64,000 bases of DNA. Origin: Cliona cf. orientalis (Eukaryota > Porifera > Demospongiae > Clionaida > Clionaidae). Of the stretch, positions 30,101 to 52,627 are shown in pieces. Under the pieces are notes generated by a model. That model did no database searches. It had not been told where the DNA came from and saw nothing but the letters and a program-made list of their open reading frames with translations. The stretch's first letter is position 1. Each line of letters begins with the position of its first letter. The stretch lies in NCBI GenBank assembly GCA_963930775.1, contig OZ005699.1, forward strand, positions 1,757,501 through 1,821,500. The letters are read 5' to 3'. The translations under genes and the position numbers were made by a program.

Positions 30101-33100
30101 GCATGATATTGATTCAGTGGCATCACTAACCATGTGGCACGGCTGTCAGAAGGCCTTTCTCGGGCTACCCTCGTGATGATCGGGGCCAGGGGCACAGGTA
30201 CGATACCATCGATAGCCACTATTCGTCGTCGCTCAAAGCTATGCTAATTATTCTATTACAACGCAACATCTAATTAACGCAAGAAAATTCACTTCCTGGA
30301 ATTGTTTTGACTCTAATTGTGCGCAAACCAGATTTGAAATTATTTTTTTTGCTTGCGTTCTATTTGAATAAACACGGTAGTTAATGTATTTTCATTTTTG
30401 AGATTTTGATTTCAATTCGTGGACCTAAAGATGTACATGTAGTTGATACTTGAGCACAGTATACATGTATGTACTATATGACATACCACATACATGTACA
30501 TGTACATGTATGTTTACATGTATGTGTCCTCCATTAATTATTAATAATTAAAGTTTTTGATTTTTACTCACGTACATGAAATATTATCGTACATGTAGGT
30601 TGCTGATCCATGGGGAGGCTCCTACATGATGGAGTCATTAACAAATGAAGTGTACGAGGCTGGTCTCAAACAAATCAATGAGGTCAGGTCAAGTCTAACC
30701 TATCTTAGCAATCACCAGGCATCAATAAGATCAGTATGATCAATTGTATCATCGCTGTCTCTACTAACAGATTGAAGAGATGGGAGGGATGGCAAAGGCA
30801 GTGGCATCTGGAATGCCAAAGCTGAAGATTGAAGAGTCAGCAGCTAGGAGACAGGCTAGGATCGACTCAGGGAAAGGTGAGGGGAGAGAGGAGAGAGGGA
30901 GGGAGAGAGAGAGAAGAGGGGACAGAGAGAGGGAGGAAGAGAGAGAGAGGAGAGAGAGAGAGGAGGGGGAGAGGAGGGAAAGAGTAACTTGAGTACACAC
31001 ACATGTATGAATGCCTCCGTGATTGATTGTACTTACATGTGTAATTGTGTGTGTAAATGTTTAATAAGTTTCATAATTACACGTAACATTGTGCACATGT
31101 ATAATTATATAATAATTGGTCAGAGCTTCTCGTGCATCCCTGTTGCCTCTTGCAACTACAGCTATATACATGTAGGCAGCCTGAGTCAAGCCTGAGACAC
31201 ACACACATACACACACGCACACACACACACATAACTCACACACACATAACTCACATACACACGTACATTGTACATGTACACATGTACATGCTGTATAGCC
31301 GGAAAATTTGGTGGGGAATTAAATTTGGTGATTTAGCAGTCTATATTACAGCCGCCAAATTAAAATCCGCCAAAATTTTCTGCTCACATATATACATATG
31401 GCAATCCCGTACCGAACCGCCAAATTTAAATCCACCAATATTCTTGCAATAGCGATTTTGGGCTCAACCGCCAAATTTAATTCCCGCCAATATTTCTGAC
31501 TATACAGTACTCCCACACACACACACACACACACACATGCACAGAGACTATCGTTGGTGTGAACAAGTACAAGCTAGAGAAGGAGGTGCCTGTTGAAGTT
31601 CTCTCCATCGAGAACTCGAAGGTGATTGCCGTCCAGAAGGCTAAGCTGGAGAAGCTTCATGCCACCAGAGACAAGGCGGCGGTTGAGGCAGCTCTCAATG
31701 CACTCACAGAAGCTGCTAGTGGATCTGGTAAGAAAAATGAAGTGATGTTAAAATTTGAGGCAAAATGAACCATTGATTGATTAGTAAAATTTGAATATAC
31801 CCAGTAGCTGCATACATGTATACATGTATATGTAGTATGATGGTGCATATAGTAAAATGTCGTCGATATAGCATGTACACAGCGATGCCTCAATTAACCG
31901 ATTCTCAACCTCAATAATGACAAATCTTTTGATGCTTCCTATTCAACAGCACAGTGCAAATTCCAAATATCAAATCAGTCATGGCATGTTACTTCATGCA
32001 TGCACCATGAATGTGTTCAGCACTTTGACGACCCCGTACCTAATAATGTCATATTTGTGCGTTCTGGTGCACATACACATACTTGACTAACATAATAATG
32101 CATCTTATTCAGGTGATAACCTGCTTGACCTGTCTATCAAGGCAGCCCGTGCTCGGTGCACTGTGGGGGAGATCTCTGACGCCATGGAGAAGGTACACGG
32201 TCGCCACGTGGCCGCACCACGAATGGTCAGTGGCGCCTACGTCACCGAGTATGGAGATAGAGAGGAGATCGATAAAGCTCTAAAGAAGGTTCAGGATTTC
32301 GAGGAGAAGGAGGGAAGACGGCCACGTATCCTCGTGGCAAAGGTCGGAGAGGACGGACACGATAGAGGGTATAAGGTCATCGCGACAGGATTTACTGATC
32401 TGGGATTTGATGTGGACATTGGACCTCTCTTTACTGTGAGCTCTCTCTCTTTTCTCTTTCTCTTCTCCCCCACTTTCTCTCTCTGTCTCTCTCCCTCTCT
32501 CCCCCACCCCTTGATTCCTTTTTCTTACTAGCTATAATAGCTTGCTTAGTATTGTCATACAATGTCATGTATTTATTTTCTCTCATCAGACACCTGCTCA
32601 AGTGGCCCAGCAAGCAGTGGATGCTGACGTTCATGTTGTTGGCATCAGCTCTCTGGCTGGAAGTCACAAGATACTTGTTCCAAGGGTAAGCAATGCCTTC
32701 AGCCAAGTGTCATTAAAAAATTAATGTTCATACACATGTACCATACTGTAGTGTTCCGGGTAAGTGCCATGGGTGCTTAAACATAACTAGCAATTTTGGC
32801 CCTCATGGGCGCTTATCTAGGATATAAATTCCATACGTTTGTATAGAAGCTGCTACATTGACCCCTTGAATGCGGTACATGGGTGCTCACTACGGAAATT
32901 ACTATTTTGACAATGTCATGTATTACACGTCCTAATTTCTGTGTGTGCTATGACGATAATTATTGTGTATTTTAGGTGATTGATGAGCTGAAGTCTCTTG
33001 GCCGAGGTGACATCCTCGTTGTGTGTGGTGGAGTCATCCCCCCTCAGGACTACCAGGCTCTCTATGAGTCTGGTGTCCAGGCGGTCTATGGCCCTGGCAC

Positions 33101-52150: not shown

Positions 52151-52627
52151 TTATATATTCAAGTGTTTTCTAAACCACTCTGAGTTCTCATAATACTTTG
52201 AATTCCCTAGTCTCAGTGCTGCCCTCTTGTAGAAATAATAGTAAAATACAGCCAGCAACTTTTGCAGCACATGAACTGCCTGTAGTCCATCATTCCATCC
52301 ATACACATTCGTACGTTGCCATCGCACGCTCACATTCCATATATGGAACGCAATTGTCAGTGCTAAATATAGAGCTCCTATGAGTAGTGTAGCTGCAAAT
52401 TTCTTCACCAGGAGAGAGATGAGCCCGGCCTTGAAGGCAAATGTGTTGAAGAAGATTAGAAATAGGAGAATGAGTGAAAATATGAGGCAAATGTCTTGAA
52501 TTAGGTAGATGACCAGGAGTACTATGGAGTTGCTGGGGGAAAATAGGACGGAGAATGAGTTGGAAAAGATGTCTACGCCGAGTAGGATCAGCTGGAGGAC
52601 CAGGATGAAAGAGTAACCGGCTGCCAT
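52151..52627 (-). CDS. TMEM138: TMEM138, intact copy, 158 aa
   Basis: Four-pass membrane protein of the ciliary/vesicular compartment; in vertebrates TMEM138 is needed for ciliogenesis and its loss causes Joubert syndrome. Recognised from the family pattern: an N-terminal pair of hydrophobic segments with NSFSVLF, IQDICLIF, FFNTFAFKAGL, a third and fourth segment with HIWNVSVRW, then YKRAALRLG and a short tail (human 162 aa). Here it is intronless. It is the only one of five copies with an unbroken frame. It lies head-to-head with NDUFS1, with 319 bases between the two starts, so the functional copy is probably the ancestral-position one that kept its promoter. Confidence 0.9.
   Translation of the reverse strand: MAAGYSFILVLQLILLGVDIFSNSFSVLFSPSNSIVLLVIYLIQDICLIFSLILLFLIFFNTFAFKAGLISLLVKKFAATLLIGALYLALTIAFHIWNVSVRWQRTNVYGWNDGLQAVHVLQKLLAVFYYYFYKRAALRLGNSKYYENSEWFRKHLNI

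Follow-up and report, generated by a model that had tools for sequence, protein, structure and literature searches.

A five-unit tandem array in a sponge genome combines kinase-Kelch genes with copied pieces of MMUT and TMEM138

How did five copies of the same three-gene segment come to lie in tandem between MMUT and NDUFS1, and which of the copied genes have been kept by selection? These questions are raised by a locus of Cliona cf. orientalis, in which a family of kinase-Kelch genes is interleaved with parts of its neighbours.

Layout of the array and the genes at its ends

Self-comparison of the window, i.e., the whole 64-kb stretch of DNA analysed here (C11:1757501-1821500), revealed five tandem units (U1 to U5) at 32962-52662, flanked by MMUT (+) on the left and NDUFS1 (+) on the right. 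The units have a length of about 4 kb and display an invariant order, namely the last exon of MMUT (+), an intronless gene for a kinase, a coiled coil and a Kelch domain (-), and TMEM138 (-), with a similarity of 46-98% depending on segment and pair (differences of 2-54%). Repeats of such length mean that the array is not due to chance; it is genuine. The unit borders, as given by the self-comparison, and the features are:

17101..33194 (+): true MMUT gene, exon-bearing frames from 17.1 kb on
U1, about 32962-36517
32976..33194 (+): genuine MMUT last exon, 72 codons, intact
33421..35764 (-): kinase-Kelch pseudogene, one frame change, one stop
36008..36495 (-): TMEM138 copy, frame broken near the N-terminus
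U2, up to about 40611
36718..36784 (+): MMUT exon remnant, about 60 bp
36967..39456 (-): kinase/coiled-coil/Kelch gene, open, intronless, 831 codons stop to stop
39460..40140 (+): upstream region with dispersed repeats (39525-39793 and 39968-40140)
40144..40527 (-): TMEM138 remnant, best match with five in-frame stops
U3, up to about 44604
40741..40959 (+): orphan MMUT last exon, 72 codons, acceptor AG, intact
41479..43786 (-): kinase-Kelch pseudogene, four frame changes, one stop
44046..44515 (-): TMEM138 copy, broken
U4, up to about 48925
44818..45164 (+): MMUT exon, a short partial start at about 44818 and a broken copy from 44946
45523..47859 (-): kinase/coiled-coil/Kelch gene, open, intronless, 779 codons stop to stop
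48425..48900 (-): TMEM138 copy, broken, two stops in the best match
U5, up to 52662
49095..49313 (+): orphan MMUT last exon, 72 codons, acceptor AG, intact
49547..51905 (-): kinase-Kelch pseudogene, two frame changes
52151..52627 (-): TMEM138 gene, the only intact copy, head to head with NDUFS1 (PF14935, E 1e-42)
Right flank
53073-53378 (+): NDUFS1 exon (PDB 75 kDa subunit, E 5.5e-28)

Exon-bearing frames of MMUT are located at 17101-17415, 21321-21800, 28480-28818 and 32091-32531 (+), followed by the last exon at 32976-33194, the one exon whose borders were worked out. The MMUT frames match PF01642 in Pfam (E 3.2e-24, 5.8e-14 and 1e-31), a match to the B12-binding domain (E 2.2e-4) is below the Pfam cut-off, and the last exon corresponds to the C-terminus of MMUT in the PDB (8gju/2xij; E 4.5e-18, i.e., ~5e-18). 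On the other side, the likely first exon of NDUFS1, as read by eye, starts about 320 bp from the TMEM138 start. All five matches of the MMUT last exon and all nine of TMEM138 in the genome (E 0.001 or better; 217 Mb on 149 contigs searched) lie inside the array; no second locus was found in these 217 Mb for TMEM138 or for the MMUT last exon, the only part of MMUT searched.

The first-pass annotation had described five units in constant order, bounded by the true MMUT gene at the left end and the only intact TMEM138 at the right end, and had asked for a dot plot; the self-comparison bears out both statements. Its five copies of the MMUT exon stand as traces only, intact copies being confined to U1, U3 and U5. 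It had also feared an assembly artefact, in which haplotypes or reads of one unit are placed end to end, an error to which tandem arrays are prone. However, the units differ by 2-54% according to segment and pair and carry private indels and repeats, the search uncovered no other place for the MMUT exon or TMEM138, and the array is situated within a contig of 9.46 Mb. On grounds of divergence above all, we regard such an artefact as highly improbable.

The remainder of the window harbors several other features. Downstream of the NDUFS1 exon, a BEL/Pao-type element extends over 54502-62208 (Pao peptidase, E 2.8e-55), and its insertion is probably young, as its 179-bp direct end repeats are 99.4% identical. 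Two secreted-looking repeat proteins, one with QQFPMKS-type repeats (8296-9000, -) and one with a 14-letter repeat (23551-24942, -, inside the MMUT gene on the opposite strand), reveal N-terminal stretches similar by eye and no Pfam match. A three-domain multicopper oxidase is encoded in one long open frame at 10762-13419 (+), and an open frame of 1489 amino acids at 2891-7357 (-) shows a weak match to Chlamydia-PMP repeats and a hydrophobic C-terminal part. The window contains no Rfam matches.

Kinase-Kelch genes in the array and across the genome

The kinase frame is open in two of the five units, U2 and U4, and broken in three. In Pfam, the U2 gene matches Pkinase (E 8.5e-42) and Kelch_1 (E 2.8e-20). 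Between U2 and U4, dN/dS amounts to 0.28 in the kinase, 0.29 in the coiled coil and 0.52 in the Kelch part; the open frames together with the kinase value support the view that these two kinases are maintained by purifying selection. U2 provides an internal control, being the most decayed unit outside the kinase and yet retaining an open frame of 831 codons with the catalytic residues that are invariant in the family. Other family members could also contribute to its retention by refreshing this frame through conversion. The two repeats between the U2 kinase and the TMEM138 remnant (39525-39793 and 39968-40140) are short and dispersed, with copies on many contigs.

Upstream of all five kinases we identified a 21-bp element, TCACATGACTGATGCTGCACA, which is exact in four units and has one mismatch in U5; the window holds five matches, with 0.01 expected:

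35801..35821 (-): element of U1, exact
39451..39471 (-): element of U2, exact
43828..43848 (-): element of U3, exact
47902..47922 (-): element of U4, exact
51929..51949 (-): element of U5, one mismatch

It starts 33 bp before the ATG in U2 and 72 bp before it in U4; in U2 it ends about 12 bp before the ATG, which is close for a promoter element. The U2 element is exact despite the fact that the DNA between kinase and TMEM138 in this unit is only 53-56% like that of the other units. Elsewhere, 15 of 21 positions agree at L023, a relative on contig C17 (none of 200 shuffles as good), and 14 of 21 in L038:5148 (2 of 200 as good), while in the other 22 of the 26 genes examined no more than 13 of 21 positions agree, a value that at least 15 of 200 shuffles also attain; the element is not family-wide. 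It looks like a putative regulatory element of this kinase subfamily, and it may be preserved by conversion instead of function.

The kinase-Kelch family occupies at least 59 places on seven contigs. A protein search, in which 54 of 2277 first-look candidates were scored, gave 107 matches; counting these by hand yielded 54 kinase-half places on C5, C6, C8, C11, C17 and C18, to which U1, U3, U5, C7:4564693 and C11:698635 were added. Only 20 stretches were fetched from these places, and the members examined are intronless and dispersed. Trees were built from 32 sequences (25 locus frames, U1-U5 and two broken stretches). In the Kelch tree, U1-U5 cluster with L023, a copy on C17 (support 95), and L023 is nested among them, with inner nodes of 74-90. 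In the kinase tree, where many nodes are weak, U1-U5 fall at separate places between other C11 clusters. Thus, the kinase half seems to be homogenised between the C11 clusters, with the Kelch half keeping more of its cluster identity. L023 itself (C17:5604000-5611000), whose Kelch half groups with U1-U5 from another contig, matches U2 at the DNA level over essentially the kinase-Kelch frame and has part of the 21-bp element upstream; DNA downstream of it matches the window at 17.8-19.7 kb and is probably a dispersed repeat. In the five of 36 flank pieces that were scanned for neighbour genes dragged along by other clusters (L031, L040 and L024), no Pfam match was found.

An alignment was made of 26 proteins, two from the window and 24 from the fetched loci, omitting L030 (658 aa, kept in the trees), L039 (618 aa), L042:532 (775 aa, match from residue 48) and shorter or broken frames. 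K49, E73, H148-R149-D150, N155 and D168-F169-G170 are invariant in all 26, and we take them to be the VAIK lysine, the C-helix glutamate, the HRD motif, the asparagine and the DFG motif. Judged by these residues, the 26 proteins are predicted to be active kinases. As to their type, the best kinase row of the phmmer search against the PDB is a chain named EGFR (9p9u, E 1.3e-26, in two stretches), and TKL-type kinases, namely CTR1, IRAK4 and BRAF, fill most of the rows shown (E 2.8e-21 and weaker); with rows so mixed, a TKL-like kinase is a lead only. Unlike these TKL-type kinases, the family kinase displays no death domain in Pfam.

The structure model is mostly at a pLDDT of about 90 for residues ~480-772, the Kelch part, and poor for the kinase part. 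The Kelch half is predicted to fold as a Kelch propeller, its best Foldseek match being 6gy5 (KLHL20, E 1.8e-21), and the strands of the model count up to six blades. This fold is shared with the KLHL and KEAP1 propellers; in contrast to those proteins, the family has no BTB/BACK match in Pfam, and its Kelch domain is fused to a kinase via a long coiled coil. In literature searches on kinase-Kelch fusions, including sponges and Amphimedon, we recognised no description of this family. The accessible part of PMC6208332 mentions a “Kelch motif containing gene” and gives negative fold changes for it, and the word Kelch does not occur in the accessible part of PMC12716839.

The two halves of the protein vary to a very different extent, with a mean column entropy among the 26 proteins of 0.32 bits in the kinase, 1.12 in the Kelch part and 1.29 in the coiled coil. 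Strand names and borders in the Kelch part were assigned by hand from the DSSP line of the model. On this assignment, the b-c and d-a loops, which comprise 115 of 282 positions, account for 27 of the 30 positions that vary most in the Kelch part (hypergeometric 5e-9), and the mean entropy of these loops is 1.50 versus 1.01 in the a-b and c-d loops (Mann-Whitney 0.007). In every blade, one or two residues shortly ahead of the inner strand are near-random and the strand-adjacent residue is mostly conserved; the mean entropy of the three pre-strand residues is 1.84 versus ~1.11 for all Kelch positions (permutation 0.0003). The b-c/d-a side is presumably the binding face, as it is the side by which KEAP1 binds Nrf2.

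Counting methods, applied to nine pairs of the 26 proteins that were picked by eye from the Kelch tree, gave pooled dN/dS values of 0.21 for the kinase, 0.41 for the Kelch strands and 0.65 for both the b-c/d-a and the a-b/c-d loops. Counting at the residues before strand a gave 0.45-0.58, with silent change raised there as well; by these methods, positive selection on the variable Kelch side was not detected. Between U1 and U5, the Kelch halves are 87-89% alike versus 91.5-94% in the non-coding flanks, and between U1 and U3 the reverse holds, with 96.6% in part of Kelch versus 64% in the 3' flank; the kinases of U1, U3 and U5 used in these comparisons are pseudogenes. The kinase-Kelch genes might form a large diversified intracellular recognition family with a near-constant kinase and a KEAP1-like propeller carrying hypervariable loops on one side, kept in flux by tandem duplication and conversion, with the array as one nursery. 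We consider this a doubtful reading; the equal dN/dS on both loop sides and a Kelch part that outpaces non-coding DNA in U1-U5, but not in U1-U3, lower its odds somewhat. If the variable side were a recognition surface, the array would mark diversified cytosolic sensors that are candidates for a new class.

Probable origin and reshuffling of the units

The units differ in age. In TMEM138, dS is 0.44-0.47 between U2 and the others, 0.16-0.20 between U4 and U1, U3 or U5, and 0.08-0.11 among U1, U3 and U5. In addition, the closest unit shifts by segment: U3 is closest to U1 in the N-terminal Kelch part (96.6%), to U5 in the coiled coil (96.2%) and to U2 in the kinase domain (95.1%), with U5, U4 and U2 nearly equal over a wider kinase segment (92.8-93.5%). 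The longest runs of agreement exceed those in 1000 column shuffles in nine of ten unit pairs (at most 6 of 1000 shuffles), the exception being U2-U5 (173 of 1000). As such shuffles leave rate differences between regions uncontrolled, and crossing-over is also compatible with shared runs, the runs are suggestive of gene conversion between units and no proof of it; with five copies, conversion cannot be distinguished from crossing-over or from rates that vary along the unit.

The intact MMUT exons of U1, U3 and U5 are 97-98% identical, with identity beginning at the acceptor AG, while their 3' flank, in an alignment with many indels, is 92% identical in U1-U5 and only ~64% in U1-U3 and U3-U5 (exon versus flank, Fisher 3e-22 for U1-U3 and 0.001 for U1-U5). 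Conversion of the exon bounded by diverged flanks would explain this pattern. The same identity, along with 72 intact codons and an acceptor AG in each copy, would also be expected if the spare exons of U3 and U5 served as alternative last exons, spliced over ~8 and 16 kb and kept by selection. However, the three copies are separated by only three silent and three amino-acid changes as counted by eye (P = 0.17 against neutrality), too few for a case of clear selection, which we rejected; silent sites are barely changed as well (dS 0.03-0.06), which fits recent conversion better than protein-level selection alone, and the copies in U2 and U4 have decayed. Use of the spare exons is possible, but unsupported, and we think it quite unlikely.

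Turning to the junctions, the repeat breaks within the final intron of MMUT on one side and immediately upstream of TMEM138 on the other. Homology on the TMEM138 side ends at 52649-52656 at three of the four junctions (J12, J23 and J45); at J34, the best gapped alignment reaches 52702. The junction spacers can be aligned with each other, best among J23, J34 and J45 and poorly for J12, and from ~32907 on, the U1 MMUT intron shows a weak alignment with the J12 spacer. The internal junctions therefore look homologous, weakest at U1/U2, and their similarity points to one founding junction that was copied onward.

The best explanation, and in our judgment a very probable one, is a founding tandem duplication followed by reshuffling, with selection on the kinases of U2 and U4 and with decaying passengers. 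Taking this single genome as a guide, the ancestral order would have been MMUT(+) / kinase-Kelch(-) / TMEM138(-) / NDUFS1(+), and one tandem duplication would have arisen between a breakpoint within the final intron of MMUT and another ~20-30 bp upstream of where TMEM138 starts. Given the unit ages and the segment-wise change of the nearest unit, the repeat would then have grown and been reshuffled by unequal crossing-over and gene conversion, stepwise over a long time and not in one burst. Because each unit contains a complete intronless kinase with the 21-bp element nearby, a new kinase copy could be active at birth. The MMUT and TMEM138 pieces would be passengers: an MMUT exon without the upstream exons and TMEM138 copies without the region shared with NDUFS1 are expected to decay except at the array ends, where the true genes persist. 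Purifying selection would have kept the kinases of U2 and U4, those of U1, U3 and U5 now being pseudogenes. Counting against this proposal are the weak homology of the MMUT intron to the junction spacers and the poor fit of the J12 spacer to the other three.

Alternatively, the kinase could have entered each unit separately, by retrocopying or transposition, the MMUT and TMEM138 pieces having been duplicated by another event. In favor of such entries are the lack of introns and the dispersal of the family members examined, as well as the failure of the U1-U5 kinase halves to group as a single clade. Against them, position and orientation of the kinase relative to MMUT and TMEM138 are identical in all five units, the Kelch halves group together (with L023), and the intergenic DNA between kinase and TMEM138 is 75-94% alike among U1, U3, U4 and U5, with U2 reaching only 53-56%. 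Separate entry is, to our mind, very unlikely.

In favoring a founding duplication with later reshuffling, we retain much of the scenario of the first-pass annotation. Its unequal exchange is probably right, in view of breakpoints in the MMUT intron and near TMEM138, homologous-looking junctions and true genes at opposite ends. A single amplification is too simple for units whose TMEM138 dS ranges from 0.08 to 0.47 and whose nearest relative changes by segment, and the array is not the sole site of kinase amplification, family clusters being present on other contigs. The suggestion that selection retained the kinases holds for U2 and U4, with their open frames and low kinase dN/dS, and fails for the three broken copies.

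Comparison with known tandem modules

The array is of a known kind, RCCX-like with unusually clear passengers. Human RCCX (STK19-C4-CYP21-TNX, in MHC class III) is likewise a tandem unit with partial copies of neighbouring genes, its STK19 copy being truncated. According to the accessible part of PMC8362596, it also includes the truncated flanking-gene copy TNXA, has the intact TNXB at its end, undergoes unequal crossover and gene conversion, and usually consists of two segments, with up to four reported; the array has five. As in RCCX, the breakpoints of the array lie inside or beside flanking genes, leaving partial passengers in the inner units, and the intact flanking genes are located at opposite ends, MMUT on the left and TMEM138 on the right. 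In contrast to RCCX, the array has a unit of ~4 kb, other genes, units whose divergence approaches one half in some segments, and a right-hand passenger, TMEM138, copied over its entire coding region but lacking the DNA upstream.

In the human red/green opsin array with its TEX28 copies, the amplified gene drags part of a neighbour along in each unit, a likeness to the kinase-Kelch array, where neighbour pieces are also carried per unit. The array constitutes a clear natural record of gene-family growth: copied passengers decay beside open kinase frames, so that the units can be ranked by age. At the same time, the broken copies are potential donors for conversion of MMUT and TMEM138 themselves, as is the case in RCCX disease.
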